From Psychroserpens jangbogonensis (GTDB lineage Bacteria; Bacteroidota; Bacteroidia; Flavobacteriales; Flavobacteriaceae), in contig NZ_JSWG01000007.1 of the NCBI RefSeq assembly GCF_000797465.1, positions 35,852 to 99,851 on the forward strand: a DNA stretch of 64,000 nucleotides, in the 5' to 3' direction. The notes beneath the pieces were generated by a model, which was not told the DNA's origin, made no database searches, and worked only from the letters and a program-made list of their open reading frames with translations. Below are positions 43,531-62,517 of this stretch, piece after piece (position 1 is the stretch's first letter; each line of letters starts with the position of its first letter). The position numbers were made by a program, and so were the translations under genes.

Positions 43531-43660
43531 TATAGTGTGTTCATGAATGGCTCGATGCAGTGCGCACTAAGATAGCAAAAAGAAACAGCGTAAAGGACAT
43601 TCTGTCAAATTAAGGAGAAGGCTCAGAACCAACTGCATTTCGCTGGCAATAGTTGTTATC
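43531..43660 (-). repeat. Cassette repeat (attC-like), copy D
   Basis: The left arm is diverged (TAGTGTGTTCATGAATGG). The middle has CTAAGATAGCAAAAAGAAAC and the right end GGCAATAGTTGTTATCC. It separates the 42591 gene from the serine hydrolase whose stop codon abuts it. Confidence 0.6.
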
Positions 43661-45124
43661 CTAGTTCTTAATTAATTCTGTTAGCTTTTCCTGTGAATCT
43701 TTATAACCTAACTCTATTGCTTTTTTGTAGCTTTTTATAGCATCGTCTTTTAAGTTATTTGCCTTGTATCCATCACCTAAAGAGTCGAAAAGATTGCCAT
43801 CGTCTGGATAGCGTTGAACATTTATTTTAAATAGTTCTAATGCCCAATCTAAATTTTCATTAGACCTTAATTGTAGATTTCCAATTGTATTTAAAAGACT
43901 TGCATTTGTAAAGTTATCAGCGTAATTCTCTTGAAGTAGAGTAATTAACTCATTCGATTTATCTGTTGAATGATGCTTTATATAATTCATTGTAAATGAG
44001 TAAACATTATCGGTTATTGGTTTTGGGGAATAGTTTTCCTCCAAAATTATTTTTGCAACAACATAAGCAATGCTTTCTACTTTTTCACTATTTGCATTTG
44101 TTGAGTAAACGATAAATAAATCCTTTTCAGGATACCAAATTAGAGAATGTGAAAATGTTCCATTAGAGCCGTTATGAGATATTCTTAAAGCATTGGATAT
44201 TGAATGATTAACGACCCAGCCATAAGCATAACTATGAGTCTTTTTAGAATTCATTGGAATATAAGGCGTTGTTAAGTTTTTAAATGATTCGGCTGTCAAT
44301 ATTAAATTCGTTTTTAAAGCTTTGTGCCAAAGTAGCATATCATTCTGTGTAGAGTTAATTCCGCCATTCCCTTTTAGATGCCAATTGATATCTCCAGTTT
44401 CTTGATAACGTTTAATTGTAGACTCCGTTTCTATTATGTTCCTGTTGTATCCATGTGACATCTGTTGTGTATCCCATTTAGGCAAAAGATATCCTGTTTG
44501 TAGCATTCCTGCTGGTGTAAAAAGATACTCGTTTAAGAAGGCTTCATAAGGCTGACCAGAAGCTAATTCTATAATTCTTGCTAAAATGCTATATCCAGTA
44601 TTAGAATAGGAATATTCTTCTCCAGGCACAGATAATAATTTACTTGCGAAAAGTTTCTCAAAAAAATCTTTTTGTGTAATTTCTGTAAAGTCACGTCCTA
44701 TAGATTCTGAAAAACCAGCAGAATGTGTTAATAATTGATGTATTGTAATGCCTTGTTTATCAATTGGCACATTTATGAAAAACTTGCTTAACGAATCAGT
44801 TAATTTTAGTTGTCCTAATTCGGCTAGTTTTATAATGGCTGTACTTGTGAATTGTTTGGTGTTAGAACCAATGTCAAAAATTGTGTTTGGGTTATTAAGA
44901 GTTTTATTGTCCTTGTTAGCTAAGCCATATCCTTTGTTTATAATTAGCTCACCTTCTTTAATAGCTAGAATTGCACCCGAAAAACCATTAGAGGTTCCAT
45001 GACTTAAATAATTGTCAATTTTTGTAAAAGTTTCTTTTGAGCTTATTTTTTTTTGAGCATTTGAAGTTACTATTCCCAATAGTACGAATGCAATTGTCGA
45101 AACGACAAAACGTGTTTTTTTCAT
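43661..45124 (-). CDS. Secreted serine hydrolase (beta-lactamase/PBP4-like) with C-terminal TPR
   Basis: This is a 487-aa protein with signal peptide 1-23 (ending SNAQ). The beta-lactamase/class C fold has SxxK as SNTK near residue 87 and YxN as YSNTGY near 173. A later HNGSNGTF supplies the third motif (H-x-G in place of KTG). The last ~110 residues form TPR-like helices (GDGYKANNLKDDAIKSYKKA). The substrate may be a D-amino acid peptide or ester. The stop codon directly touches the preceding repeat. It is one of three such hydrolases in the array. Confidence 0.85.
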   Translation of the reverse strand: MKKTRFVVSTIAFVLLGIVTSNAQKKISSKETFTKIDNYLSHGTSNGFSGAILAIKEGELIINKGYGLANKDNKTLNNPNTIFDIGSNTKQFTSTAIIKLAELGQLKLTDSLSKFFINVPIDKQGITIHQLLTHSAGFSESIGRDFTEITQKDFFEKLFASKLLSVPGEEYSYSNTGYSILARIIELASGQPYEAFLNEYLFTPAGMLQTGYLLPKWDTQQMSHGYNRNIIETESTIKRYQETGDINWHLKGNGGINSTQNDMLLWHKALKTNLILTAESFKNLTTPYIPMNSKKTHSYAYGWVVNHSISNALRISHNGSNGTFSHSLIWYPEKDLFIVYSTNANSEKVESIAYVVAKIILEENYSPKPITDNVYSFTMNYIKHHSTDKSNELITLLQENYADNFTNASLLNTIGNLQLRSNENLDWALELFKINVQRYPDDGNLFDSLGDGYKANNLKDDAIKSYKKAIELGYKDSQEKLTELIKN

Positions 45125-45224
45125 TATGATTTATGATTTTTGAATAAGACGAATAGAAATCTAGATAGGTTACACTGTTTCCTAATTTATTGTGAACATT
45201 TCTTATTACAAGCGGTAAGAGAAA

Positions 45225-45250
45225 CTGACTATGCACGTTGATAGTGTAGT
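45225..45250 (-). repeat. Half-site of the cassette repeat, copy E
   Basis: Only a right arm (CTATGCACGTTGATAGTGTAG) is recognisable. A left arm around 45165-45185 is too diverged to be sure. Confidence 0.35.
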
Positions 45251-45263
45251 TTTTAATTCTATT

Positions 45264-45344
45264 TTAATGTTTGAGCCGGATTTGTTTTAAAGATATAAGC
45301 AATAAAGCACCTAATAGCGTCAGTAGTAATTTGTTCATTTTCAT
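45264..45344 (-). other. Short ORF or signal-peptide remnant (26 aa)
   Basis: MKMNKLLLTLLGALLLISLK followed by six residues and a TAA. It looks like the N-terminus of an exported protein whose body has been lost, or a small membrane peptide. It lies between half-site E and the SGNH-like lipoprotein gene. Weak support. Confidence 0.25.
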
Positions 45345-45357
45345 GATATATTTTTGC

Positions 45358-46902
45358 TTAGTTACAATCTGGAACAATACCTTTAAGATACATTAAATTA
45401 TATGCAGTTTCATATCCGATTTTATGTGCAGTCCACGTATTCCATTCATCAGAACTTTGATCTAGTGGTTCGTCACCTAAAACACATTCACCTGTTAATA
45501 ATGTGTACATATAAGCTGCAGAAGCTTTGTCTAAATTTCCATGCATGTGCCAGTTGTCGCTATAGGCAGATTGTGAAGGAATAGCTTCTTTAAGTTGGAC
45601 ATACAAAGTTCGAATAGGTATTGCACGTGCATTTGGTAATTCTGCATTTCTAACCATATACAAAGCGGTCCCTAAGTCTGTACCATTATTGGTTTCGCTA
45701 ATACGTTTGTCTAATCCGTATAACATTGAAGTGTTGCCATGGTTACCGTTATCTTGCATTGGAAACCCTAATGAAAAATCAAACTGAGCAGGATCGATAT
45801 TATAGCGTTTATTTGGTTCAAAATTTGTATTTGCTCTTCCATAATTAAAATTAATAGGAGGTGTTCCATTACTTACAAGCGTTCGGTTTGATTGTCCTAC
45901 TATCCATTGTAAACCATTTAAAATACCGTTTTCAGAACTTGTTCCAGTATGGTTGTAATTCAGAACATCATCATCAATATCACAGCTTTTAAATGGAGAA
46001 ATAAAAGAACGTTCTCCAGTATATTGAACATTATCTGTTTCACTAGTTTTAGTTGCTAATGCTATTTCAGCAATTTCATCATCATATTGATAGTCAGACT
46101 TCTTTGCGCTTTTATTGAGTATTTGAGAATAAATTGATGCTGCTGCTAAATATGCACCGTTTGGTGTTGGATGTTCAATGTCTTCATCTTTTTTAGTAGA
46201 TGGTAATGCCTCCCAAGCTCGACCAGCAGGAATAGTTTCAACAGTTACTTTTGCTCCATCTGCTGTGCGATGCGAGTATTCGGAAAAATGACCAATGGAT
46301 GCTGTAGTGGCTACATCTTTTGGCCACAACATTAAAAGCAAAGGTTGAGCGTCACCTTCTGCAATTTTTGCAACAATTTTATTTACTCCTAAAGCATAAT
46401 ATCCTGGTAATTTTGCTATAATATATGGATCAGCACCTATTACAACATAATCCCATTTATGGGCACCTTCGCCTGCTAAATTTGCTAGTCTTTCTGATTG
46501 ATTGTCTGGCCAATAATAATATTGCATTAATGAATGGCAATAATAATCGGCATCGAATACATTGCCAGCTTGTCCTAAACCATAAGTAACCACTTTTTCT
46601 TTATAAATATCTTCAAAATCAATATTCAATTCTAAATTAATAGAAGCGTCTTGTAATAAGATGTTTTCTAATTCTGTAGCTATTTTATTTGATGCAAATG
46701 CACCAGAACTTTCATTGATTGATTTACTTGTTCCTAATACTAAAATATTAAGTTCACCATCATCGTTAAGATCTGGTGAAACTTGAATTATTGAATTTTT
46801 AGATGAATCATCTGAAGAACAGCTGATTGTAAAGGTTAATGAAGTGAAGAGTATAATACTCAACAAATTAGAACATAATAAATTTCTTATAGCTGCTTTC
46901 AT
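45358..46902 (-). CDS. Lipoprotein with SGNH-hydrolase-like features
   Basis: This is a 514-aa protein. The lipoprotein signal ends TFTISCSSDDSS (Cys ~28 with acidic +2 residues, the Bacteroidota surface-export signal). ILVLGTSKSINESSGAFASN (~55-75) resembles the block-I GxS of SGNH hydrolases, and EHPTPNGAYLAAASIYSQIL (~230) resembles the DxxH block where an acidic residue and His are expected. No clear blocks II/III. I therefore infer an esterase-like fold with low certainty. It has ~13 bp of spacing to the 45344 remnant. Confidence 0.72.
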   Translation of the reverse strand: MKAAIRNLLCSNLLSIILFTSLTFTISCSSDDSSKNSIIQVSPDLNDDGELNILVLGTSKSINESSGAFASNKIATELENILLQDASINLELNIDFEDIYKEKVVTYGLGQAGNVFDADYYCHSLMQYYYWPDNQSERLANLAGEGAHKWDYVVIGADPYIIAKLPGYYALGVNKIVAKIAEGDAQPLLLMLWPKDVATTASIGHFSEYSHRTADGAKVTVETIPAGRAWEALPSTKKDEDIEHPTPNGAYLAAASIYSQILNKSAKKSDYQYDDEIAEIALATKTSETDNVQYTGERSFISPFKSCDIDDDVLNYNHTGTSSENGILNGLQWIVGQSNRTLVSNGTPPINFNYGRANTNFEPNKRYNIDPAQFDFSLGFPMQDNGNHGNTSMLYGLDKRISETNNGTDLGTALYMVRNAELPNARAIPIRTLYVQLKEAIPSQSAYSDNWHMHGNLDKASAAYMYTLLTGECVLGDEPLDQSSDEWNTWTAHKIGYETAYNLMYLKGIVPDCN

Positions 46903-46919
46903 ATTTTATTTAAAAAATT

Positions 46920-47025
46920 AACTGTTAAATTACTAAAAGAAAACGAACCAAAGGAAATACCATAGGATTTTTCGAGTAGGAGTACAAACGAAACCAGCAA
47001 TGGACTATACACGTTGTTATGTTTA
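46920..47025 (-). repeat. Cassette repeat (attC-like), copy F, internally deleted left arm
   Basis: AAC-TGTT is joined directly to AAATTACTAAAAGAAAACG, so the left arm has lost ~25 bp. The right arm CTATACACGTTGTTATGTTTA is intact. The right end pairs with the left end of copy G across the MscS gene. Confidence 0.65.
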
Positions 47026-47168
47026 GTTGACTAAGGTGCTTTTCTTTAATTTATAATTTGATATCATCTAAAACTTCCCATTTTATATTCTACTATGGGT
47101 TTATTATTTGCTGATTATCACTCGAAACTCGATAATAATTAAATCGGTTATTATGATTTGTTTAATTT

Positions 47169-47200
47169 TTTGGAAATTCTAATATTAATGCGCAATTTTG
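47169..47200 (+). promoter_or_regulatory. Promoter TTTG-N20-CAATTTTG of the MscS gene
   Basis: TTTG 47169-47172, 20 bp, CAATTTTG 47193-47200. This matches TAnnTTTG except for C in place of T. It predicts a transcript starting near 47207, 15 nt before the ATG. An own promoter is expected for the one long gene that faces against its array neighbours. Confidence 0.45.
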
Positions 47201-47221: not shown

Positions 47222-48079
47222 ATGGAAAAAAAGAGTCTTGAAGTAGCCTTCGATAAATTATATGATAAATTGGAAGGATGGTTGAACACATTGATAGAGA
47301 TGATTCCAAATGTCATTATTGCATTGGTTGTTTTTATTATTTTCTATATACTGAGTAGATGGATTGGTCATGTAATTACTAAAATGCTTGGGAAATTATC
47401 TAAAAACAATCTAATTAATAGATTGATTGCTAGAGCTTTATCCGTGTCAATCATTATGGCAGGTGTCTTTTTTGCTCTTGGGCTTATGCATCTTGATAAA
47501 ACGGTAACCTCTCTTCTAGCTGGTATTGGGATTTTTGGATTGGCACTTTCTTTTGCTTTTCAGCATACCGCTACAAATATTTTATCGGGAATGATTATAT
47601 CCTTGAGGAGTAAAATTCAATTGGGTGATCTTATTGATTCGAACGATACTTTTGGTAATGTATTGAGAGTAGGTTTGCGTTCAACGAAAGTTTTAAATGT
47701 AAAAGGTCAACATGTGGATATTCCAAATAGACTTCTTTTAGATAATACTTACAAAGAGTTTTCAAAAACAGGATTTAGAAGGATTGATGTAATTGGTAAA
47801 ATAAATTTTAGAGAGAACCTAGATGAGATTAGACAAAAAGCTGAAGAGAGAATGATGAACTTTGATTTTCTCTATAAAGAGAAAACACCGAACTTTGTAT
47901 ACAACGAAATTCACAAGGAAAAGGTTGATTTTACTTTAAGGGTTTGGATGAAGTTCACTAATGTTGATGGTGATTATTTGAATGCCAGAAGTCAGTGTTT
48001 GATTGAACTTAGTAAATTATTCAATGAGCTTGAGGTAGAAATCGCTAGAGATGAAATTCTTTACCTAGACAGAATATAA
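47222..48079 (+). CDS. Mechanosensitive ion channel family protein (MscS-like)
   Basis: This is a 285-aa MscS-type channel with three membrane helices at ~20-45, 70-92 and 95-120. The pore helix TM3 has the LAGIGIFGLALSFAFQHTAT pattern. It is followed by the beta domain (LGDLIDSNDTFGNVLRVGLR) and the C-terminal alpha/beta domain. The length is that of minimal MscS (286 aa in E. coli). It opens under membrane tension to protect against osmotic downshock. It is the only long plus-strand gene in the array, with a ~200 bp leader region and 37 bp from its stop to copy G. Confidence 0.88.
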   Translation: MEKKSLEVAFDKLYDKLEGWLNTLIEMIPNVIIALVVFIIFYILSRWIGHVITKMLGKLSKNNLINRLIARALSVSIIMAGVFFALGLMHLDKTVTSLLAGIGIFGLALSFAFQHTATNILSGMIISLRSKIQLGDLIDSNDTFGNVLRVGLRSTKVLNVKGQHVDIPNRLLLDNTYKEFSKTGFRRIDVIGKINFRENLDEIRQKAEERMMNFDFLYKEKTPNFVYNEIHKEKVDFTLRVWMKFTNVDGDYLNARSQCLIELSKLFNELEVEIARDEILYLDRI

Positions 48080-48116
48080 GGCACAAAAACTCTTAAAGAA
48101 TTACTTAGTTTAATTA

Positions 48117-48252
48117 AACCTAACGTGTTCGTGATGGTTTACTTCTCAGTTCGCTTCGCTCGTGTGTGTTGCTGTGAGAACTAAAAGAGCAAAAAAAAAC
48201 AGCGTAGTAATAATTAAACATCATAGCAATTTATTATACACGTTGTTGGCTA
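48117..48252 (-). repeat. Cassette repeat (attC-like), copy G
   Basis: Left end AAACCTAACGTGTTCGTGATGG, right end TATACACGTTGTTGGCTAAC. An insertion rich in TCG/CTT (48147-48170) enlarges the left half. CTAAAAGAGCAAAAA replaces the usual CTAAGATAGCAAA. Confidence 0.75.
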
Positions 48253-48258
48253 ACGTTT

Positions 48259-48762
48259 TTATTCGAGTATTAATATTTTTTCCATTTTATAATCCTCTTC
48301 AGAATGTCCATTTGGGAAAGAGTTTACAATCGATTCCATTATTCTAAACCCATTTTTTTGATAAATATCAATTGTATTTTGATTTTTTCGGTTTACAATT
48401 AATTCGATTTTTTTAATTCTGTTTTCCGTTGCAAATCGATAAACAAATTCCAATGCAGTTTTTCCAATTTTCCTTCCTCGAAATGATTCCAAAATATATA
48501 GTTTACTTAGACTAAGTATTTCGTCCAATTTTTGAATTCCTAAATACCCAACATTTTTTTCGTTAAAGTTTAGTAGATAATAGTTGAAATTCTCATTTTT
48601 AATTTGGCTTCCAATTGCTTTTTCCGATTGAAATTCTGTTAAAAAATAATCCGTATGTTCAGATGGAATAAATGGATCATAAACTTGGTGCATAATTTCA
48701 TTCGCCAAATTTTCTATGATTTTAAATTCAGTCGAATTATCAGCTTGTTTAATCTCAATCAT
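48259..48762 (-). CDS. GNAT-family N-acetyltransferase
   Basis: This is a 167-aa acetyltransferase: YPSEHTDYF-like loop (FIPSEHTDYFLTEFQ), VGYLGIQKLDEILSLSKLYI, acetyl-CoA loop ESFRGRKIGKTALEFV (residues ~93-108), and ELIVNRKNQNTIDIYQKNGF. The substrate is not deducible. Compact cassette placement: stop 7 bp after copy G, start 17 nt before copy H. Confidence 0.86.
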   Translation of the reverse strand: MIEIKQADNSTEFKIIENLANEIMHQVYDPFIPSEHTDYFLTEFQSEKAIGSQIKNENFNYYLLNFNEKNVGYLGIQKLDEILSLSKLYILESFRGRKIGKTALEFVYRFATENRIKKIELIVNRKNQNTIDIYQKNGFRIMESIVNSFPNGHSEEDYKMEKILILE

Positions 48763-48778
48763 CGTTTTTCTTAAATGT

Positions 48779-48911
48779 TTACCAAAGTGTTTATGTGTGA
48801 TTTCGGTTTGCTGAGTCTAAGATAGCAAATTAACAGATACCTATTGTTCTATAGAAAGGTTTTTCCGAAATGAAAATTAGACACAAAAATCTATGCACAT
48901 TGTTTAGCAAT
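48779..48911 (-). repeat. Cassette repeat (attC-like), copy H
   Basis: The left arm ACCAAAGTGTTTATGTGTG and right arm CTATGCACATTGTTTAGCAA have both drifted. The middle CTAAGATAGCAAATTAACAG is conserved. Confidence 0.65.
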
Positions 48912-49777: not shown

Positions 49778-49837
49778 TTATTTATTATAGTTAGTTTTAA
49801 TGAAGACGGAAGACAGAAAGTTTTGTTACATTATTCC

Positions 49838-49968
49838 TACATTTTCACGTATGATTTGTGCGACCTTGAATTCTCAGGATTTTTGGTTGTAGTACATCAG
49901 ATGATTAAATATATAAATATAAATTGAAGTAGGAGTTTAGCATTACTAATACACGTTGTTGTACACTG
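49838..49968 (-). repeat. Cassette repeat (attC-like), copy I (second sequence type)
   Basis: It belongs to the subtype with GATTTGTGCGACCTTGAATT, GGATTTTTGGTTGT and ATTGAAGTAGGAG, shared with copies N and O. Right arm AATACACGTTGTTGTACACT. The left arm is diverged (CCTACATTTTCACGTATG). Confidence 0.7.
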
Positions 49969-51312: not shown

Positions 51313-51507
51313 TTTTTGATTGTATAATAATTTAAAGAAAGAATTTCTGTCACAAAATTGCATACAAACCCTAAAATAAACTTGTTCGAAAAGGATAATT
51401 ATTTGTTCTAAACGTAATTAGTAAGTATTATGCATTAATTCTAATATTAACTTTACTTGAATTATTGTCCTGATTTGTAATCTATAAGAAAATTAGAAGC
51501 ATAATTG

Positions 51508-51584
51508 TGTGCAACAAGTTCATGTATAGTTACTTGCTGTGAGGAGTACGATAGCAATGAGCTATGCACAATGTTAGGCACTGA
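51508..51584 (-). repeat. Cassette repeat (attC-like), copy J, shortened
   Basis: Left end TGTGTGCAACAAGTTCATGTA, right end CTATGCACAATGTTAGGCAC. Only ~77 bp, with most of the middle missing. Its left end pairs with copy I's right end and its right end with copy K's left end. Confidence 0.65.
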
Positions 51585-53507: not shown

Positions 53508-53532
53508 ATTTTGTATAATAATTTTATTATTG

Positions 53533-53670
53533 TTCCTAACGTGTTCGTGTATGACTTCGTTGTGTGAGGACTAAGTTAGCAAAAAGAAACAGCGTAGTGG
53601 GTATTCGGAAGAATTTCCATGGTAATCATTAAACATCACTAAGCAATTGAATATACATGTTGTTGTGTGT
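53533..53670 (-). repeat. Cassette repeat (attC-like), copy K
   Basis: Left end GTTCCTAACGTGTTCGTGTA, right end ATATACATGTTGTTGTGTGT. The middle has CTAAGTTAGCAAAAAGAAAC. It is one of the cleanest left arms. Confidence 0.8.
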
Positions 53671-53685
53671 ACGCACTTTTAAACG

Positions 53686-54375
53686 CTAATATTTTATTTT
53701 AATTACTTCTCCTTGTTCAGTGAGAGGATGAATGTCTTCAATATCATCCCAATTTTTTTTCGCACTTGGGATTTGAACACTTGCCAAATGATAAATACCA
53801 TACATTTTAGAATCTATCTTAATTTTGTTTTCTTTCGCATCTAGTAAAATCCAGTAAGGAATGAAAGCCCAATCAATATTTTCAATTGTCCCAATGGTTT
53901 CAGCACTTTCTGTATCGCCTGAAATAAAAATGTTTTTATTATGCCATGTTATTAAATATGAAAAATGGTTTAAAGAAAATTTATGTTTTGTTTTAAATGC
54001 TTTAATACTGAAATCAGGAATTAAATTTTCGAGATTTTCCAATTCCGTTATATTCCAAGATCCATATTCAGTTCCTTTCTTTTCTTTTATGACTTTCTTA
54101 ATATTCTTCTTTGAGTAATGGTCAGAGTGTTTGTGGGTAAAAATGAAGAATGAATCATTTTTTATACTATCTAATTCACTTTTTTTAAATTCCATATAAT
54201 TATGAGCTCCAGATTTATAAGGAAAGTCAGCATATATATTGGTAGTTCCATCTGTCAAATACAAACCACAGTTACCAATAAATTTAATTTTGATCTCTTT
54301 GGATTGTGAAAAACCAAAACTTGTAATAAAAAGTAAAATTATTATAGGTAAACTTCTTCTATATCTTATATTCAT
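53686..54375 (-). CDS. Secreted MBL-fold metallo-hydrolase
   Basis: The protein is 229 aa from ATG 54375 (MNIRYRRSLPIIILLFITSF). An earlier ATG at 54402 sits in repeat DNA. Signal peptide, then a metallo-beta-lactamase fold of the YtmA/UlaG-like type: FIFTHKHSDHYS (HxHxDH, ~70-80), FISGDTES and FIPYWILLD. Probably periplasmic. Its substrate is unknown. Start 22 nt from copy L. Confidence 0.83.
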   Translation of the reverse strand: MNIRYRRSLPIIILLFITSFGFSQSKEIKIKFIGNCGLYLTDGTTNIYADFPYKSGAHNYMEFKKSELDSIKNDSFFIFTHKHSDHYSKKNIKKVIKEKKGTEYGSWNITELENLENLIPDFSIKAFKTKHKFSLNHFSYLITWHNKNIFISGDTESAETIGTIENIDWAFIPYWILLDAKENKIKIDSKMYGIYHLASVQIPSAKKNWDDIEDIHPLTEQGEVIKIKY

Positions 54376-54395
54376 TTGAATGAGTTTTCTTATTG

Positions 54396-54530
54396 TGGGC
54401 AACGTGTTCGTGTATGAGTTGTGCGTTGGCTAGCAACTAAATTAGTAAAAGAAAACAAACCAGTGGAAAATCCGTAGGATTTTACAAGTACATACAGAAC
54501 CGGCAATTAATTATACACGTTGTTAGCACC
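54396..54530 (-). repeat. Cassette repeat (attC-like), copy L
   Basis: Left end TGTGGGCAACGTGTTCGTGTA, right end TATACACGTTGTTAGCACC. The internal hairpin AAAATCC-GTA-GGATTTT is perfect. Confidence 0.82.
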
Positions 54531-54535
54531 AGTTT

Positions 54536-54913
54536 CTACTTTTTTTCTTCACGCAAAATTTTCTCCATTTTACGACCTCTTGCCAATTCATCAATCAGCT
54601 TTTCCATACGTCTACATTGTTTATACAATTCAAATTCATCCTCTATTTCTTCAATTCGATAACCACAAACGACTCCTTTAATCAAGTGTGCGTTAGGATG
54701 TATTTTAGCTTTTTGAAAAAATGTTCTAAAGGTTGTTTTTTCATCAATAAGTGCTTGTAAAGCATCTTGATCAAAACCAGTGAACCATTTAATTACTTGG
54801 TTAAGTTCTTCTTTTGTTCTTCCATTCTTCTCCAACCTATTCAAGTAAAGTGGATAAATGGATGCAAATATCATATTAGCGACTTTTTCATTTTTTCCGG
54901 CTGTAACTTTCAT
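54536..54913 (-). CDS. DUF2200-family protein
   Basis: This is a 125-aa helical, charged protein with the DUF2200 pattern: FASIYPLYLNRLEKNGRTKE, LNQVIKWFTGFDQDAL, THFRTFFQKAKIHPNA-like loop, and GVVCGYRIEEIEDE. Function unknown. The family appears widely in small accessory regions. Stop 6 bp from copy L and start 24 nt from copy M, with no room for a promoter, so this is a model cassette gene. Confidence 0.85.
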   Translation of the reverse strand: MKVTAGKNEKVANMIFASIYPLYLNRLEKNGRTKEELNQVIKWFTGFDQDALQALIDEKTTFRTFFQKAKIHPNAHLIKGVVCGYRIEEIEDEFELYKQCRRMEKLIDELARGRKMEKILREEKK

Positions 54914-54935
54914 TTTTATATGATTTTGAATTGAT

Positions 54936-55083
54936 TGGTGCCAACATGTTCGTGTATGGTTTCGTTGCGTGAGAACTAAGATAGCAAATAAACAGAAACC
55001 TATTGTTCAGAAGCGATAGAAATTCCGATAGGAATTTCCGAGTACACACAAACCAAGAAATTTATTATACACGTTGTTATGAA
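54936..55083 (-). repeat. Cassette repeat (attC-like), copy M
   Basis: Left end TTGGTGCCAACATGTTCGTG, right end TATACACGTTGTTATGAAC. Perfect internal hairpin GAAATTCC-GATA-GGAATTTC. CTAAGATAGCAAATAAACAG in the middle. Confidence 0.82.
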
Positions 55084-56108
55084 CTTTTTTTACTTCTCAG
55101 TATTCTTGTAATACGGTTAATAACGATTTCTGATAAATTCCAATTGTATCCATCAAAATTAGTTGTATTCATAAATTGAATAACAACGGTATCAATGTCT
55201 TTGTGGTATTCAGCAAGACTCTGATAGCCAAGAACTAGACCTCCATGTTCATATTCATAAATGGAAGAATAGATTTCCTGTTCACCTTCATTAAAAACGG
55301 AACCATCGTTTAATGCCCTCAAGAATATACCCACATCCTGTGCAGTAGCAATCATTAAACCTGAATTCTCTGTCTTCATATCGGCCTCAATTCCAACGTA
55401 ATATCCGCTCATTACATCATCTAGATCCACTTCAACAATCGAACCGAATGTATTGTTGAGTTCGAGTGGTATCAAGATTTCTTCTTTAATATATTGTTGA
55501 TGACTATAACCCACAACCTTATCAATGAGGTCAGAAATCAACATATAATTAGTATTTGAATAGCCATAATCTTGACCTGGCTCAAAGTTCGCAGGTAAAT
55601 CCAGTGCGTATTCAAGTGTTTCTCGTTTGTTTTCTGGTGGTTTTTCCCAATAATCAGGATGGTCTACAAAATTAGGAATGCCACTGCGATGTTGAACCAT
55701 CATTCGCAAGGTGATTTTATCAGCGTTTTCAATTCTTCCTACAAGTTCTGGAAAGTAATCAGCGAGCGTTTTATCTAGCGACAAACGACTATCTTTAACT
55801 AATTTGGTTGTAGCAACAGCAACATATAACTTGGTTATACTGGCAATCTTGAATAAGGCGTGTGGGTTGGCGGGTATTTTATTTTTTCTGTCATGCCAGC
55901 CAGCCGTATAAAATGCTGGCAGTTTGCCTTCTTCGTCCACGTAAACAATCATTCCATCAAATCCATGACCAATAGCTTCATTTACTTGTTCTTGAACTGT
56001 ATCAGGGAGTGGTAAAATCCATGCCTTTACCAAAATCCATGGTACAAAGAACAAAGAGGTCATGCTTGCTGTAATAAATGCTATTCTGAGTATTCGTTTT
56101 GTTGTCAT
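55077..56108 (-). CDS. Serine hydrolase (class C beta-lactamase-like)
   Basis: This is a 343-aa protein with an N-terminal signal anchor (residues ~8-27). The family motifs are SITK near 93, YSNTNY near 198, and a compressed C-terminal part in which no clear HxG/KTG is seen. The end near IYEYEHGGLVLGYQSLA provides H-G-G. It probably acts in the periplasm on a peptide or ester. Its stop codon TAA lies inside the core sequence of copy M (GTTA at 55076-55079). Start 32 nt from copy N. Confidence 0.84.
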   Translation of the reverse strand: MTTKRILRIAFITASMTSLFFVPWILVKAWILPLPDTVQEQVNEAIGHGFDGMIVYVDEEGKLPAFYTAGWHDRKNKIPANPHALFKIASITKLYVAVATTKLVKDSRLSLDKTLADYFPELVGRIENADKITLRMMVQHRSGIPNFVDHPDYWEKPPENKRETLEYALDLPANFEPGQDYGYSNTNYMLISDLIDKVVGYSHQQYIKEEILIPLELNNTFGSIVEVDLDDVMSGYYVGIEADMKTENSGLMIATAQDVGIFLRALNDGSVFNEGEQEIYSSIYEYEHGGLVLGYQSLAEYHKDIDTVVIQFMNTTNFDGYNWNLSEIVINRITRILRSKKSS

Positions 56109-56138
56109 ATTATTTCAGGGCGATACGTTTTTTAAATT

Positions 56139-56273
56139 GCTCATAACGTATTCGTGTATGATTTGTGCGACCTAGAATTCGAAGGGTTTTTTGGTTGTTG
56201 CAAATCAGATGATTAAAGATATAAATTTAAATTGAAGTAGGAGGTTAGCATTGATTATACACGCTGTTAGCTA
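56139..56273 (-). repeat. Cassette repeat (attC-like), copy N
   Basis: Left end CTCATAACGTATTCGTGTA, right end TATACACGCTGTTAGCTAC. Nearly identical to copy O over ~130 bp, and of the same subtype as copy I. Confidence 0.82.
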
Positions 56274-56929
56274 CAGTTTTGTATGTTCTTTTTTACAGAA
56301 TCATAATTATTTTGTAGTTCACCACCTAGTTGGTTCATAAAGCTAAGAATACTCATTATTTCTTCTAATTCTCCTTTTTGTAAAGCATCTGCAGACTTGT
56401 TTATTTCAAGTTGAACCCTTCTTTGCAAATTATACATACTTTCAAGTTCGTAGAGACATTCATAATTGAATTCGTTTGTAACATTTAGCGTAGTCGTTGT
56501 TTTCCAGGCTATTTCTGTTAATGTTCGGATTTCTAGTTTTATCTGTGTTTTTCCTCTATAGCGATATAATCCATTAGCAAGAGTTACCGAATCTTTTGTT
56601 TTAAAAAAACCAGGATGTCTCTTTCTTTGTAATTGTAATTGCCTTGGGCTTGCAATAATTATAGAAGTTTTGCCATCATATAAATTCTTGAAATCTTTAT
56701 ATGCATTTAAAACTTGATGATTATTTTTTAATATAATGTCAATTTCTAATTTATTGTTTTCAACTTCTTCAGTGATTTTGCTTATTGCAATCGCCTTACT
56801 TTCATTTGTTTTTTTTGAAGAATTCCAGTTATTAAACCAAATGGCAAGATTTATACCTACAAAAAGTAATAGAAGTTCGCCAAAAATATATTTCAAATTT
56901 ATTTTCCCATTTAGTTTAAAAAATCTCAT
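56267..56929 (-). CDS. DUF6090-family membrane protein
   Basis: This is a 220-aa protein: INLKYIFGELLLLFVGINLA (membrane helix, ~9-30), IWFNNWNSSKKTNESKA, then a long periplasmic coiled-coil-rich region. This is the N-terminal pattern of DUF6090. A second intact copy (61633) and a decayed one (60870) occur nearby. Function unknown. The stop codon lies in the core sequence of copy N. Confidence 0.85.
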   Translation of the reverse strand: MRFFKLNGKINLKYIFGELLLLFVGINLAIWFNNWNSSKKTNESKAIAISKITEEVENNKLEIDIILKNNHQVLNAYKDFKNLYDGKTSIIIASPRQLQLQRKRHPGFFKTKDSVTLANGLYRYRGKTQIKLEIRTLTEIAWKTTTTLNVTNEFNYECLYELESMYNLQRRVQLEINKSADALQKGELEEIMSILSFMNQLGGELQNNYDSVKKNIQNCS

Positions 56930-56950
56930 ATAGTATTTTTTGATAAATTG

Positions 56951-57083
56951 CAGCTAACGTGTTCGTGTATGATTTGTGCGACCTAGAATCCGCAGGATTT
57001 TTGGTTGTTGCTTATCAGATGATTAAAGATATAAATTTAAATTGAAGTAGGAGGTGAGCCATGATTATACACGTTGTTAGCAA
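56951..57083 (-). repeat. Cassette repeat (attC-like), copy O
   Basis: Left end TTGCAGCTAACGTGTTCGTG, right end TATACACGTTGTTAGCAAA. Contains AATCC-GCA-GGATT. Confidence 0.82.
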
Positions 57084-57109
57084 ATGTTGTTTTAATTCAG
57101 TAATGCGTT

Positions 57110-57532
57110 TCATTCTATGTTATATCCGACCACTTTTATTTCTTCGTTTTCATTTTTGACCAGTGTGATTTTTTGTTTTGCTTTGCCTTTTTCAAATTCA
57201 CTATTATAGTTCATATTGTAAAATCCTTGTTCAATTGCATCTTCTGAAACCATAGTATTCCAATCGGATAATTCCGTGCTTTTTAGTTCTCCAAGTTTGT
57301 TTTCAGTTGATTCAAATATTTTTACCAAATCTTCTTTGGAATAGACTTTATAGAATTCCTCTCCAAAAAGTGTAGTTGCTTTTTCAAAGTCAGATTGCTT
57401 TATAAATCCAAAAAGTTCAGCTGTTACTTTTTCTGCATCTTGTCGATCAGATTCTCGATTTTTATATTCGTTACTAAAGTTACAACTTGCAGCAAAAATT
57501 GGAATCATTAAAATTAGTAAAAATCTTTTCAT
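57110..57532 (-). CDS. Lipoprotein, DUF4019/DUF3887-like
   Basis: The protein is 140 aa from ATG 57532 (MKRFLLILMIPIFAASC, lipobox Cys17). The apparent frame extending to 57643 runs through copy P and is not coding. A small NTF2-like fold follows (TAELFGFIKQSDFEKATTLF, YSKEDLVKIFESTENKLG), like DUF4019/DUF3887 proteins. Periplasmic lipoprotein of unknown role. Start 19 nt from copy P. Confidence 0.78.
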   Translation of the reverse strand: MKRFLLILMIPIFAASCNFSNEYKNRESDRQDAEKVTAELFGFIKQSDFEKATTLFGEEFYKVYSKEDLVKIFESTENKLGELKSTELSDWNTMVSEDAIEQGFYNMNYNSEFEKGKAKQKITLVKNENEEIKVVGYNIE

Positions 57533-57550
57533 TATTTGGTTTTTAATATT

Positions 57551-57687
57551 TACTAACGTGTTAGTGTATGGTTTCGTAGTGTTTGGTACTAAGATAGCAA
57601 AATGGGAAGAACGTGCGGTAAATCCGCTAGGATTTCTTGACAAACCCCTAACTGACTTAACTATGAATTATACACGTTTTTACCAAC
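57551..57687 (-). repeat. Cassette repeat (attC-like), copy P
   Basis: Left end ATTTACTAACGTGTTAGTGTA. The right end TTATACACGTTTTTACCAAC has GTTTTT in place of GTTGTT. Hairpin AAATCC-GCTA-GGATTT. Confidence 0.78.
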
Positions 57688-58385
57688 TGTTTTTTTTCTA
57701 AAGTTCAGTTTATTCGTTCCCATTATTAAAAGCCATAAACAAATTCCGAATTCTCCAAGAGTTGCAGGATATGCTACAATTTGGGAAATAATCGTTTTAT
57801 TAAAATCTGAGTATAGGAAACCTCCAAAAAATATTATCAAATAACCAAAGCAGCCAGCCATTAAAAGTATTCCTAGAAGTTTTGGTAGAAAGCCTGATTT
57901 ATAAACTAAATATCCAAACGGAAATAACCAAAGACCCCAGAAAATTTGTGAGATTTGAATTCCGTTGTTATAACTATCAATATAAAACATTACTTGGGTT
58001 TGAAGTTCGGTTTCACCTAGTTTTTCTAAATACTCAGTCTTATAAATAGTGTTAGAACTGAAAACTTATTCAAGATAATTACGAAATAAATTGTCACACT
58101 TATCAATGAAAATATTACCATAAGATTAGCGTGGAATTTGTTTACTCTGTGTAAAAGTTTGTATAAAACTAATGGCAGAAAAATGTGAATTAGAAAAGTT
58201 ATTATGCCACTAACTATTCCTAATCGAAACAAGAATTCAGAATTTGTTATGTTTTCAAATGTTTTTGATGGGCTTTCCCTAACAATTAACTGGGAAGGAA
58301 TATATGCAAGGCTAATTATTCCAGCTATTATTAGTATTAAATATAGTATTCCGGCTACTCTAGCAGTCTTATTTCTTGATGTCAT
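57661..58385 (-). pseudogene. Frameshifted DUF4386-family membrane protein
   Basis: Two frames together make one DUF4386 protein. ATG 58385 (MTSRNKTARVAGILYLILII) runs to TAG near 58026. A second frame from ~58045 to 57661 continues with KTEYLEKLGETELQTQVMFY and FPFGYLVYKSGFLPKLLGIL, the expected next residues. A single missing base in TTTATAAGACT (~58046) separates them. The reading frame of either half has no other damage, so the break is recent or a sequencing error. Directly downstream of the DUF6326-like gene. Confidence 0.82.
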
Positions 58386-58404
58386 AGTTATCTGTTTGAA
58401 TTTG

Positions 58405-58806
58405 TTATCCCTTTGGCCATTTCCAAGCATACCATACAATTAAAGCAGTAATAATACTTTCTAAAAATGCTAAAAACACATAAAATAAGTACCATTCGTT
58501 AGTTGAATAAACACCTATAATAATCATCATTAGTGTAAATAAAGTTCCAAATATGATATTGAGAATTCGGTTTAATTTTGGTTTAAGGATAATTGATGCT
58601 GCAACCATCACTGAAGAAATTGCCAAAATCATTGATGCTATTAGTAATTTGGTTGGACTGTCCAAATTATTTTCGCCTGTAATTAAACTGTTTACTTTAT
58701 CTGGTGTATACAGCTCAAAGTAGTCTCCATATAAATAACATAAGGTTACAGAAGTCCACAATGCGGCAAGTTTGATTTTGATGTTTACTTTTGAATTTTC
58801 TAACAT
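58405..58806 (-). CDS. DUF6326-like membrane protein
   Basis: This is a 133-aa protein with four membrane helices (~13-27, 50-70, 78-96, 104-127). LAALWTSVTLCYLYGDYFEL at the start fits DUF6326. It shares an interval with the DUF4386 gene, and the two overlap only in shared spacing (20 bp to the most likely DUF4386 start). Function unknown. Start 83 nt from copy Q, longer than usual for this array. Confidence 0.78.
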   Translation of the reverse strand: MLENSKVNIKIKLAALWTSVTLCYLYGDYFELYTPDKVNSLITGENNLDSPTKLLIASMILAISSVMVAASIILKPKLNRILNIIFGTLFTLMMIIIGVYSTNEWYLFYVFLAFLESIITALIVWYAWKWPKG

Positions 58807-58888
58807 TTGAGTTTGATTATAATTAGTTCAGCATTAAGACCATTTAATTAAGGTTTGGTTTAATCGAATTATATTTATTTTCTAATAG

Positions 58889-59026
58889 TTGCTAACGTGT
58901 TCGTGTATGGTTTGTTACATTGGCAAGAACTAAGTTAATAAAAGAAACCTAGCCTATAGAAAATTCAACAGGAATTTTCCGAGTATGCAACGACCATAGC
59001 AATTAATCATACACGTTGTTAGGCAC
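58889..59026 (-). repeat. Cassette repeat (attC-like), copy Q
   Basis: Left end AGTTGCTAACGTGTTCGTGTA, right end ATACACGTTGTTAGGCAC. GTTAGGC fits the classical integron core GTTRRRY. Hairpin GAAAATTC-AACAG-GAATTTTC. Confidence 0.82.
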
Positions 59027-59028
59027 TG

Positions 59029-59703
59029 CTATTTTATCAATTCCATTACTTTATTGGTAATCCTGTCACATCGGCTCGAGCCAAATTCAAAAATATTTTT
59101 ATCATTCGCTACTTCATAGAGTTTTTCTTTTAGCATTTCTTTCGACCTGTGAACACGCACTTTTACATTCGCAATAGTTAAATCTAAAGCAATAGAAATT
59201 TCTTTTAGACTCATTTCTTCTACTTCTTTCATAATATAAACAGTTTTATATTTGATGTCTAAACTGTCAATAGCATTTTCCAAAACTTGTTTTGCTTCAT
59301 TCCGTATCATCTTGTCCTGTGGATTTAATTGTTTGCTATCAGGAATTTCTAAAATTGTGTTACTCTTTAAATTATTATATTGTTCATTTAAGTGATATAA
59401 CTTTCCTTTTTCTTTTAAACTTGCCAGAGATTCGTTTATTCCAATGCGAATAAGCCAAGTAGAAAAAGTAGATTCTAATTTAAACTGATATAGTTTAGTA
59501 AAGGCTTTAATATAACTGTCTTGCATTATATCTTCAATTTCGGCATAATCTTTTATATAACTTCTAACAACTCTATATAGTTTTTGATTATTCCTTTTTA
59601 CCAAAATTTCATAAAGTTCTTTTTCGCCTCTTAAAATGCGCTTTATGACTTCACTCTCTTTAATTTTATGATTATTCAAATCATTGATATTTATTGCTTC
59701 CAT
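59029..59703 (-). CDS. Sigma-70-family RNA polymerase sigma factor
   Basis: This is a 224-aa sigma factor. Region 2 has YIKDYAEIEDIMQDSYIKAF (~47-67) and ESTFSTWLIRIGINESLASL. Region 4 is at ~150-195 (EVEEMSLKEISIALDLTIAN, VKVRVHRSKEMLKEKL). A short C-terminal tail FEFGSSRCDRITNKVMEL contains a Cys. Divergent from the DoxX-like gene 112 bp away, which is a plausible target. Stop 3 bp from copy Q. Confidence 0.87.
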   Translation of the reverse strand: MEAININDLNNHKIKESEVIKRILRGEKELYEILVKRNNQKLYRVVRSYIKDYAEIEDIMQDSYIKAFTKLYQFKLESTFSTWLIRIGINESLASLKEKGKLYHLNEQYNNLKSNTILEIPDSKQLNPQDKMIRNEAKQVLENAIDSLDIKYKTVYIMKEVEEMSLKEISIALDLTIANVKVRVHRSKEMLKEKLYEVANDKNIFEFGSSRCDRITNKVMELIK

Positions 59704-59815
59704 TTTATCGTGTCTTTTACTTTGGATAAGGAATTCAAAAAAAAGTTACAAATTTTTGTATCCTTTTTTAAAATCTGTAATCAAAAGACTTTAACAAATT
59801 TAAAATAATAAGATT

Positions 59816-60199
59816 ATGGATTCAAATGTACAATTAGTAAAAAACATTTTAAAGTACACTTTTGGTTTAGTGCCAATAGTTGCAGGAATAGACAAGTTTA
59901 CCATTATTCTAACCAATTGGAGTCAGTACATTTCAGAAGGCTTTGCAGGAATGCTTCCTTTTGAATCTACTACATTTATGATGATAGTAGGTGTTATCGA
60001 AATTGTAGTTGGTGTTCTTGTTTTAACTAAAACAAAACTTGGAGCTTATGTGGTTTCTGCATGGTTAGTGACAATATCATTGACTTTGATTTTTAGTTGG
60101 AGTTATGTAGATGTTGCTGTAAGAGATTTAGTGATGGCTATTGCTGCCTTTTGTTTAGCAAAATTGTATGAAAACAAACAAAGTAAAGCCAAAAACTAA
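59816..60199 (+). CDS. DoxX-like membrane protein
   Basis: This is a 127-aa protein with four membrane helices (~8-27, 48-68, 75-95, 100-118): LVPIVAGIDKFTIILTNWSQ, MIVGVIEIVVGVLVLTK, YVVSAWLVTISLTLIFS. This is the DoxX-like pattern. It is divergently transcribed from the sigma factor gene and is one of only two plus-strand genes in the array. It ends in a hairpin terminator. Its function is unclear, and DoxX proteins have been linked to redox and stress systems. Confidence 0.83.
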   Translation: MDSNVQLVKNILKYTFGLVPIVAGIDKFTIILTNWSQYISEGFAGMLPFESTTFMMIVGVIEIVVGVLVLTKTKLGAYVVSAWLVTISLTLIFSWSYVDVAVRDLVMAIAAFCLAKLYENKQSKAKN

Positions 60200-60231
60200 A
60201 AGTTAATTTGTAAGTTATATTTTAAAATGAT

Positions 60232-60262
60232 CACGTAATGTTGAACCGTTACGTGTTTTTTT
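60232..60262 (+). terminator. Rho-independent terminator of the DoxX-like gene
   Basis: Inverted repeat CACGTAA (60232-60238) / TTACGTG (60249-60255) with a 10-nt loop, followed by a run of seven T. Confidence 0.7.
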
Positions 60263-60284
60263 AATTATACACGTTGTTGTGCAC
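60262..60284 (-). repeat. Half-site of the cassette repeat, copy R
   Basis: Only the right arm AATTATACACGTTGTTGTGCAC is present. The left arm and middle are replaced by the terminator region of the DoxX-like gene. Its end matches the left end of copy S at 9 of 9 bases. Confidence 0.7.
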
Positions 60285-60311
60285 TCTATTTTATTTAGTT
60301 TTCAAATCCGT

Positions 60312-60710
60312 TTACTGCAAATAAACTTCCAGTGGAATTCCGTTTGGATCACGAAAGTAGAATGCATAATAAGATTCTGAATATTCAGGATATTTTTTAG
60401 GTTCACGAGTGATTTTTACATTCAGTTTATTAATCAGTTCATAAATTTTATCAACTTCCGTTTCGCTATTCAATTCAAATGCCAAATGATCTAATCCGAC
60501 ATTACGGACAAATTTTTCACTTTTTTCAGTTCGATCAAATCGTATATAAAGATTATGTTCGCCCTGTTTATAAGATTTCATTATTCCAAAATCTCCTTCG
60601 CTAACGTGGTCAATTTCAAATCCCATTTCGGTCAGTATTTTGTCATAAAATAATTCGGAATCATTGAACTCTTTTACGTTAAGAATTATATGTCCAATTA
60701 TCGCTTTCAT
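60312..60710 (-). CDS. VOC-family protein (glyoxalase/bleomycin-resistance-like)
   Basis: This is a 132-aa protein with two beta-alpha-beta-beta-beta halves: IGHIILNVKEFNDSELFYDK (metal His at residue 5), LDHLAFELNSETEVDKIYEL (His), RDPNGIPLEVYL (Glu near 129). The His/Glu pattern supports a divalent metal site. Substrates in this family range from methylglyoxal adducts to fosfomycin or aromatic diols, and none can be chosen here. Start 24 nt from copy S. Confidence 0.87.
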   Translation of the reverse strand: MKAIIGHIILNVKEFNDSELFYDKILTEMGFEIDHVSEGDFGIMKSYKQGEHNLYIRFDRTEKSEKFVRNVGLDHLAFELNSETEVDKIYELINKLNVKITREPKKYPEYSESYYAFYFRDPNGIPLEVYLQ

Positions 60711-60733
60711 AGATTTTTATTGATTTGGTACAT

Positions 60734-60867
60734 TGTGCACAACGTGTTCGTGTATGGCTTGATGCGTTGGCTGTAAGATAGCAAATAAAAACAAGCGCAT
60801 TATTCAGCAGCAAGAATTTTCCATTTAGAAAATCAGAAGCAATGAATTATACAAGTTGTTGTGCTTT
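60734..60867 (-). repeat. Cassette repeat (attC-like), copy S
   Basis: Left end TTGTGCACAACGTGTTCGTG, right end ATTATACAAGTTGTTGTGCTT. GTAAGATAGCAAATAAAAAC in the middle. Hairpin ATTTTC-CATTTA-GAAAAT. Confidence 0.8.
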
Positions 60868-60869
60868 CG

Positions 60870-61613
60870 TTATTTTTTTAATTCCTTATTGATTAGTCCA
60901 ACAATTATATCTATTTCCTTTAGCATATGTTCTAATCTACCTTTGGGTTCTTGTTCAGATATACTTTTCCAACGATGCACTCCCTCGTAAACCAAAATCA
61001 GTTCTTTTAAATTTTTATCAATATTAAAAAACCCTCTTAATTTAGGTTGCTTTATTAGCCTTTTGGGTAGTGTTGTTGATCCTAATTATGGATTTAAATT
61101 TTGAATTACTCCATTTTTACCATCGTCAGTGTATTCAGCACGCCTTGTAGTTAGGTTTTGTTGACGTTTTAAGTCGATTAATTTGTTTCTTATTTCTGAA
61201 GGAATTAATCCAACATCACCATTGTTCTGAAGAGATTCTATTGTGCTAGAATTGAATGTTAAAGGTGTAGAAATTACAGGAAGTTTAGAAATCTGCTCAT
61301 ATACTTGATTTGGTGGTAGAACATCATTATTATAAGTATTAGTATATACCTGATATTCTTTAAGGTAATTATTGAATTTTTCAATGGTTTTTTGAGCAAC
61401 CATTATATCACTATTCAAATCGCCTAATAACTGCAGATAATAATCTTGTGTCTTCGCATCTAATTTTTGATTTTCGTATCAGTTATTAATTTGTAATGCA
61501 ATCAAAATTCCAATAACGACAAGAAAAATTTCTCCAATGGCATATTTCAGATACTTTCCTGTTTTATTTTTACCCATAAGATCGTAACGTTTTTTTTTAT
61601 AATTTTTTATCAT
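60870..61613 (-). pseudogene. DUF6090 gene with two in-frame nonsense codons
   Basis: From ATG 61613 to TAA 60870 a single frame of 248 codons encodes a full-length DUF6090 protein (YLKYAIGEIFLVVIGILIAL; C-terminus LILVYEGVHRWKSISEQEP). It is interrupted by TGA at codon 45 (61479-61481, where the family has Trp after INN) and TAA at codon 176 (61086-61088). The frame never shifts. The apparent 110-aa gene at 61086-61418 is only the middle of this. It lies 20 bp after an intact DUF6090 paralogue in the same cassette interval. Confidence 0.85.
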
Positions 61614-61632
61614 TGTCGATATACCGTATTTT

Positions 61633-62361
61633 TCAATTAATTGTCTTTATTAATACATTTATATCACTTTTTGTTTGAATTAGCAATTGATTTTGCCCTT
61701 CAATTGATTTAAGTGTTGTGAATAAATCTCCAAATACAATGGAATTAGATTGAAAATTAACACTTTCTATTGTTGGTAATTGAGAATCCATATTAAGCAA
61801 TGGATCTACAACTTGTTTAACAAAAATAAAAGGCATGATATCGTTTCCAAACTTTCTTGTCAAGATTTTAACCTGTTCTTGTGTTCCTCCATAAAAATCA
61901 AAACTATAATATTCAGATAATAATTTTTTTAATTTATTATTTGTAATTAAATCAATACTTTGAGAGGAAATCATATTATCAAATGAAATTTTTATAGGAA
62001 TAAAAGATTCGTATGAAGATAATATTGGCATATATTCCACAAAATTATTTATTCGAACTTTCTCGTCCATAGGATTTCCCAATAAGACTAGAGCTTCATT
62101 AATAACTCGCGATTTTTCAACATTGAATTCTAAGACTTCTTCTATTTTCTTAAGGTCTTCATTTAGGTTTTTGCTGATTTCTACTAAATAATTAAGTTCT
62201 TTTTTGTGAAGTAAATTTTGATTATTCCAATTGTTAATCTGTAAAGCTATCAAAATTCCAATAACTACAAGTACAATTTCACCTATTGCATATTTCAAAT
62301 ACTTTCCAGTTTTATTTTTCTTCATAAGGTCGTATCGTATTTTTCTAAAGAATTTTATCAT
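61633..62361 (-). CDS. DUF6090-family membrane protein
   Basis: This is a 242-aa protein: MIKFFRKIRYDLMKKNKTGK, membrane helix with YAIGEIVLVVIGILIAL (~26-43), QINNWNNQN, then a long helical periplasmic region. The N-terminal pattern defines DUF6090, a family with no known function that is common and often multi-copy in Flavobacteriaceae. It is followed by a decayed paralogue. Start 23 nt from copy T. Confidence 0.87.
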   Translation of the reverse strand: MIKFFRKIRYDLMKKNKTGKYLKYAIGEIVLVVIGILIALQINNWNNQNLLHKKELNYLVEISKNLNEDLKKIEEVLEFNVEKSRVINEALVLLGNPMDEKVRINNFVEYMPILSSYESFIPIKISFDNMISSQSIDLITNNKLKKLLSEYYSFDFYGGTQEQVKILTRKFGNDIMPFIFVKQVVDPLLNMDSQLPTIESVNFQSNSIVFGDLFTTLKSIEGQNQLLIQTKSDINVLIKTIN

Positions 62362-62384
62362 TAGTTATTGGTTGGTCATAATGA

Positions 62385-62517
62385 AGCACAACGGGTTTAT
62401 ATTTGAGTAGTAGCGAATTTATGATACTACTTTTTAGAAAGTAATTTACAAAATAAAAAGTAATAGCGACTGAATTTATAATTCAATCGCTATTACTTAT
62501 ACACGTTGTTGTGAGTA
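62385..62517 (-). repeat. Cassette repeat (attC-like), copy T, with a long central hairpin
   Basis: Left end GAAGCACAACGGGTTTATAT, right end TTATACACGTTGTTGTGAGT. The centre is replaced by an almost perfect hairpin, AGTAATAGCGA / TCGCTATTACT (62459-62497). Confidence 0.78.

Follow-up and report, generated by a model that had tools for sequence, protein, structure and literature searches.

The window analyzed here, a stretch of 64,000 nucleotides (nt) from Psychroserpens jangbogonensis (Flavobacteriaceae), is the right-hand 64 kb of a 99,851-base contig (C60), with which it shares its right end, in a 3.63 Mb genome assembled as 62 contigs. Between positions 43,525 and 62,517, small genes alternate with copies of an imperfect palindrome, and as judged from sequence this region is very probably the cassette array of an integron-like system, in which units ending in attC-like hairpins are likely moved by a Xer-type recombinase at the array head and likely expressed from a promoter on the attI side. 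A covariance model (R1) built from nine copies of the repeat, seven of them inside the window, identifies 16 minus-strand sites in this region and none on the plus strand (E 2.8e-30 to 0.018; Table 1); seven of these are the training copies, which are bound to match. One further remnant comes from a pattern scan, in agreement with the ~17 copies counted in a preliminary description of this DNA, while a further R1 match at 57,759 is at chance level and no Rfam family reaches its threshold in the window. Read in the direction of the genes, the sites have the layout N6-AAC-AA-CGTGTAT ... ATACACG-AACAC-GTT-N6, with an outer box, then a spacer of 2/5 nt, an inner box that is conserved, and a middle that varies. 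The region holds 22 main open reading frames (ORFs; five overlapping ones of 72-85 amino acids (aa) are left out of this count), and 20 of these read leftward, as expected from the nearly uniform gene direction described earlier, with two (47,222-48,079 and 59,816-60,199) reading rightward. Across the whole source genome, the R1 matches number 85 at E<=1 and 76 at E<=0.01, 69 of the latter in 11 blocks with one strand per block; the repeats are not the single, scattered copies that the preliminary description had held up as evidence against an array. To the left of the array, a partial R1 match (37039-37124, 29.2 bits, model positions 26-115) is perhaps an older, decayed array tail.

In many genera, the sites are associated with a tyrosine recombinase. 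In a relative with a single-contig assembly of 4,029,301 bases (G002, probably Psychroserpens ponticola), all 284 R1 sites at E<=0.01 are on the plus strand between 1,838,272 and 2,104,950 (267 kb), and the head of this array is occupied by one 391-aa tyrosine recombinase encoded on the same strand. In the source genome, contig C55 starts with one site, one gene (166-564), and an ortholog of this recombinase (604-1542; 79% identity over G002 residues 76-391), flanked by the same chromosomal gene run as in G002 except for one extra gene in the latter. The absence of an integrase from the window, noted in the preliminary description, is consistent with an IntI-model search of the genome, which gives no match on the window's contig; the recombinase that was predicted to lie upstream of the leftward genes is found on C55, with a site, a cassette, and an attI-like junction, although the join that would place it there is unassembled. 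The array on contig C62 is headed by a second recombinase type of 375 aa. Among 80 recombinase-centred loci from named genomes (R1 was run on all, the model R2 on 64), there are 63 R1 matches (E<=0.01) and 34 R2 matches (E<=0.1), six of them shared, for 91 distinct places, every one of which is downstream of the recombinase and on its strand, with 694 kb of sequence covered upstream and 292 kb downstream. Site matches occur at 34 of the 80 loci, and at 26 of the 39 where at least 1.5 kb follows the recombinase gene. Twenty further loci from relatives place 51 of 58 R1 matches downstream on the recombinase strand. A decay of sites with distance from the recombinase was also considered and is not supported (window: rho 0.30, p 0.25; G002: rho 0.01, p 0.84).

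These recombinases (Pfam PF00589) have in common with IntI1 the conserved R, K, H-x-x-R, H, and Y columns, which we take to be the catalytic residues of tyrosine recombinases. Four of them score 195-205 bits against the IntI model, below its cut-off of 265 (IntI1 of R388, as the control, scores 507.5 bits), and the IntI-specific insertion near patch III is absent in comparison with IntI1, with residues 181-223 of IntI4 also unmatched, contrary to the IntI-type recombinase that the preliminary description had proposed to search for. With the XerC and XerD models they score 171-198 bits against cut-offs of 329.6 and 335.15, and the source genome has XerD-like and XerC-like genes separate from the array recombinases. 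The C62-type recombinase passes NF040815 (241.7 vs 220), a XerA-type model described as "site-specific tyrosine recombinase/integron integrase," and the nearest solved structures are XerA proteins. Because the tree outgroups are thin and several branches are long, we do not claim a sister relation between IntI and the array recombinases. Most of the recombinases carry an extra N-terminal domain of 90 aa (L056:10321-10590 and relatives) that may bear a weak resemblance to the HARP domain of annealing helicases: six of 25 N-terminal pieces match HARP at E<=0.1 (best 3.1e-4; the one shown is below the gathering score), as do two of 51 full recombinases at E<=0.05, and PDB entry 4o66 gives E 0.27. 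If true, a HARP-like domain would suit an enzyme handling single-stranded hairpins.

At all 15 family-1 recombinase loci of the genus, the attI-like motif ATATAAC-N-N-GTT occurs 21-30 nt past the recombinase stop, and after it comes a unit start with the layout N6-N-A. Directly ahead of this motif is TATATTTG, exact at eight of the 15 loci and in near variants at the rest, which may be a Bacteroidota -7 box; the box beside attI would then presumably be the array promoter. The first unit start varies among most genomes of the genus, with G001 and G005 alike, and the family-2 recombinases have a different junction from family 1. In a scan of 59 loci, the motif (<=2 mismatches) was found in 41, at some of them far from the stop and perhaps by chance.

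In integrons, the bases after the G/TT junction belong to the next cassette, and for this reason the start of a cassette should be matched to its own site rather than to the neighbors. In 248 units of G002, the inverted complement of a unit's own outer arm agrees with the unit's first seven variable bases at 5.92/7, as opposed to 2.68/7 for the in-array neighbor and 2.50-2.76 for five other offsets, and at least six matching bases are found in 174/248 own pairings vs 4/248 neighbor pairings. The same holds for nine units of the window (5.11 vs 3.11 for the neighbor), 36 units of the other arrays in the source genome (4.22 vs 2.56), and 53 units of other species (4.28 vs 2.40). This match continues as far as position 11, with an almost invariant mismatch at position 8, and it accounts for the lack of any excess over shuffles in the in-array pair counts, since unit ends pair with their own end and not with the neighbor. 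A pattern scan of G002 yields 259 paired sites, and hence 258 units, with no minus-strand pairs; 20 families of near-identical units comprise 75 of 256 units, the largest with 26 copies. Where repeated units stand in different neighborhoods, identity stops on the own-site side, or starts on the unit-start side, at -3 to +2 of GTT, which places the exchange within CGTT, much as integron units break at the G/TT junction. A staggered exchange from bases -4 and -3 was dropped as an explanation: the 20 families follow the left unit at these bases (0.85, 0.83) and not the right (0.42, 0.44; background 0.47, 0.48).

The pairing of the boxes is biased with regard to strand. In the inner box, which pairs at 95.2% of cells over nine copies, positions 1-16 have 1,015 top-strand A-C mismatches vs 21 G-T, and positions 1-11 are in register, with 2,759 of 2,849 cells either Watson-Crick or top-strand A-C; with pairing in register, there is no extrahelical base in the L/inner box. 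The outer box (GTT/AAC) pairs in the unit-circle form, with the spacer unpaired, and its positions 1-11 have 309 top-strand A-C vs 32 G-T. A single position contributes 219 of these 309, leaving 90 vs 32, and position 3 runs in the opposite direction (8 A-C vs 17 G-T); for in-array pairing, positions 1-7 are nearly even (228 vs 180). A top-strand A-C is a bottom-strand G-T, and the bottom strand can therefore pair where the top strand cannot. By predicted DNA folding, the bottom strand is likewise the more stable one in 234 of the 248 units, and the bias recurs in 27 units of the source genome (A-C 31 vs G-T 7) and 28 of other species (28 vs 2), both sets having been chosen for matching ends.

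These observations lead to a proposed mechanism in which units of one or few genes, each with an attC-like hairpin site at its end, would be inserted, excised, and shuffled by the Xer-type tyrosine recombinase at the array head. The recombinase would act on the folded bottom strand, a circular cassette would be joined to attI at GTT, and the array would be expressed from the promoter beside attI. That the system works like an integron is strongly supported by the sequence evidence. Several points weigh against it. Recombination itself was not observed, and we infer it from sequence. The join between C60 and C55 is absent from the assembly, and the recombinase on C55, at 312 aa, may be inactive because it is missing the N-terminal domain of its relatives. 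Of the source-genome blocks, those on C7 and C44 lack a recombinase match close to their upstream end, and the C3 block has only a distant one of 406 aa. Where 1.5 kb or more follows the recombinase gene, 13 of the 39 loci gave no site match. The seven remaining R1 matches of the 20 further loci all come from one member of the genus, G015, where they lie upstream of a distant recombinase (33% identity) and on the strand opposite to it. Finally, the folding of five whole sites in the array form shows no clear advantage over shuffles (z 0.18 to -2.35).

Sites that sit just past stop codons and can form hairpins could also be RNA structures or intergenic repeats, such as terminators or REP-like (repetitive extragenic palindromic) elements, between ordinary genes and without recombination. 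The sense transcript would then be the top strand, in which G-U would be tolerable, yet the excess is of A-C; given in addition that the two ends of a unit match one another but not the neighbor, that the sites are linked to one recombinase, and that the window lacks Rfam families at threshold, this explanation is extremely improbable. Equally little credence is due to the idea of independent transposable elements or miniature inverted-repeat transposable elements (MITEs), one per unit, with the repeat as the element's end. Repeated units do occur, up to the 26 copies in G002, but a transposon family shares its ends, whereas here every unit has its own inverted pair, and the units, arranged head to tail behind a recombinase, share a single strand.

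Two further readings concern the enzyme. As the genome is in 62 contigs, an IntI of an ordinary integron could be encoded in an unassembled part, with the linked recombinase incidental. R2 matches four places (30.0-32.9 kb, E 9.9e-7 to 4e-4) in the attC cluster of Polaribacter phage P12002L, for which, in the excerpted text of PMC9892861, two predicted attC sites were tested, with IntI1 recombining the bottom strand of one and the top strand of neither; that excerpt reports no recombinase for the cluster. An ordinary IntI integron is nonetheless very unlikely here, in view of the linked recombinase with its conserved junction at the array head and of the result that 0/199 family genomes have a protein over the IntI cut-off, in a pipeline in which no positive control was registered. 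The XerA proteins being the closest solved relatives, the recombinase might instead exchange both strands of double-stranded sites, as Xer does at dif, leaving the hairpin unused. The strand-biased mismatches and the barcodes that fit only within a unit point rather to a folded single strand, and the exchange maps to a single short stretch without indication of a separate overlap, which makes a double-strand exchange unlikely.

Among known systems, the array can be compared with the sedentary chromosomal integrons, e.g., the Vibrio cholerae superintegron: both have a one-way array of small cassettes with a recombinase at its head, and sites with outer and inner boxes, an unpaired spacer, and a GTT junction. 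Array size is also comparable, with the 284 sites of G002 next to 179 cassettes in V. cholerae and up to 301 in V. vulnificus (PMC11023631, as excerpted). The present system differs in a recombinase without the IntI insertion, an inner box without an extrahelical base, a long, unit-specific outer-box barcode, another attI, and a recombinase that reads in the cassette direction and mostly carries the extra N-terminal domain. By two defining features, the IntI insertion and the extrahelical base, it does not belong to the IntI/attC family, in which strand choice at attC is set mainly by the extrahelical base (PMC2727003, excerpt). The orientation of the recombinase is shared with the Treponema integrons, where intI is transcribed towards attI in the cassette direction (excerpted text of PMC3607928); Treponema, however, carries intI genes, while the present recombinase scores below the IntI cut-off. 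In comparison with XerA, XerC, and XerD, the present recombinase is below the XerC and XerD cut-offs, is linked to a cassette array, and has the extra N-terminal domain. We give about even chances to a broader proposal, that Bacteroidota carry a second, phylum-wide integron class that diverged beside the IntI lineage. Such a class would have a Xer-like integrase lacking the IntI insertion and hairpins without extrahelical bases in which G-T wobbles mark the recombining strand; the end barcode specific to each unit would be completely paired only once the circle is excised, and the additional N-terminal domain may serve to anneal single-stranded DNA.

R1 matches occur in all 22 genomes of the window's genus (the source genome included), two of which have only one or two. 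In the family, R2 finds sites at E<=1e-4 in 173/199 genomes (172/198 genera; <=16 candidates were scored per genome), and recombinase relatives are present at E<=1e-42 in 125/199. Across the phylum, R2 matches 52/296 genomes and 39/140 genera at E<=1e-5, many with a single match. R2 is not a general attC model, as R388 gives no match at E<=5. The array belongs to a family-wide system that likely captures and shuffles genes in the manner of integrons, with a recombinase below the standard IntI cut-off. No description of it was found among open-licence PubMed Central (PMC) papers, a set with no preprints and few subscription papers; the nearest account is that of the Polaribacter phage cluster. 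Reviews count Bacteroidota among the integron-bearing phyla (PMC9668308, PMC8618304), Salinibacter ruber M1 is the only member of Bacteroidetes for which IntegronFinder 2.0 lists a complete integron (PMC9024848), and none of 11 taxon-specific attC models is for Bacteroidota (PMC8352920). If active, this would be a large, overlooked gene-exchange system, and it raises the testable question of whether the IntI insertion and extrahelical bases are needed for single-strand cassette recombination or whether there is a second solution.

As for cargo (Table 1), a Pfam scan of 20 window proteins identifies three Beta-lactamase-family hydrolases, a GNAT acetyltransferase, Rce1-like and ydhR-like proteins, one alpha/beta-type hydrolase, two cNMP-binding proteins (one just below the cut-off), a sigma-70-type factor, a glyoxalase, DJ-1/PfpI, a mechanosensitive channel, and DUFs (domains of unknown function), and three are without a family. 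In the 248 G002 units (<=2.5 kb), the longest ORF (>=50 aa) is forward in 181, reverse in seven, and absent in 60, with a median start codon 30 nt from the boundary and a median stop 12 nt ahead of the site. Unit content differs widely between the source genome and G002, rather than being constant across relatives, the other outcome named in advance as counting against an array. With matches of >=350 bp and >=72% considered, few units are shared with G002: the source genome has one such stretch of 568 bp at 81.5% and another of 657 bp at 75.8%, and on C62 a shorter stretch has seven partial matches there. The DUF2200 cassette gene has 89% DNA identity over 399 bases to a gene of L096; no site is detectable behind the latter, and this likeness is therefore weak evidence of transfer.

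Table 1. Predicted attC-like sites, gene cassettes, and cargo genes in the window; cassettes with boundaries placed by the G/TT rule are marked.
Feature	Position	Strand	Basis
attC-like site, degenerate	43525..43676	-	R1 22.1 bits, E 0.009
attC-like remnant	45109..45242	-	pattern scan only, 5 mismatches
attC-like site	46884..47025	-	R1 43.8 bits
attC-like site	48115..48254	-	R1 47.7 bits
GNAT acetyltransferase (cargo gene)	48262..48762	-	Pfam PF00583
attC-like site	48778..48911	-	R1 43.7 bits
attC-like site	49831..49967	-	R1 46 bits
attC-like site, short	51506..51582	-	R1 27.1 bits
attC-like site	53531..53671	-	R1 105.2 bits; in R1 training set
gene cassette, no Pfam family	53540..54402	-	ORF, no Pfam match; G/TT-rule boundaries
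attC-like site	54394..54531	-	R1 123.4 bits; in R1 training set
gene cassette, DUF2200	54403..54944	-	Pfam PF09966
attC-like site	54936..55085	-	R1 114.2 bits; in R1 training set
gene cassette, serine hydrolase (Beta-lactamase Pfam family)	54945..56146	-	PF00144; G/TT-rule boundaries
attC-like site	56138..56275	-	R1 70.1 bits
gene cassette, no Pfam family	56147..56957	-	ORF; G/TT-rule boundaries
attC-like site	56949..57085	-	R1 85.4 bits; in R1 training set
gene cassette, DUF4019-like	56958..57556	-	PF13211, ORF scanned from earlier TTG start; G/TT-rule boundaries
attC-like site	57548..57688	-	R1 106.9 bits; in R1 training set
cassette, three small ORFs, one DUF6326	57557..58895	-	ORFs, Pfam; G/TT-rule boundaries
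attC-like site	58887..59027	-	R1 130.6 bits, E 2.8e-30; in R1 training set
attC-like remnant	60237..60285	-	R1 20.9 bits, E 0.018
glyoxalase/VOC family (cargo gene)	60315..60710	-	Pfam PF00903
attC-like site	60734..60867	-	R1 108.7 bits; in R1 training set
attC-like site, degenerate	62383..62517	-	R1 29.1 bits

The most repeated G002 unit, with 26 copies (units c8, c11, c21, and others), is ~595 bp long and apparently gene-less, and the first units of G001 and G005 begin with letters similar to it. On plasmids, a 221-aa recombinase relative (45% identity over the matched part) immediately precedes tet(X3), with both genes on one strand, in three records (L173:2967-4988, L174:6028-8049, and L175:6028-8049; two Acinetobacter and one uncultured bacterium), and the gap between the two genes resembles the family-2 attI junction. 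Because no attC-like site was found in these plasmid records, a link between tet(X3) and the system is only a lead. A Chryseobacterium plasmid (L176:7974-11226) encodes a recombinase relative followed by two weak R2 matches (E 5e-4, 0.012), and this locus is perhaps a mobile form of the system. Lastly, termini resembling TTTTGACCCGTCCTGAA or GTCTTGTCCTGAA occur at the starts of contigs C3, C6, C7, C11, C55, C5, and C23 of the source genome and at the ends of C44 and C60, and in six of these contigs the terminus directly adjoins an attC-like site, which suggests a multi-copy insertion element that targets attC-like sites and broke the assembly. The contig-end motif was found four times, always at a contig end.

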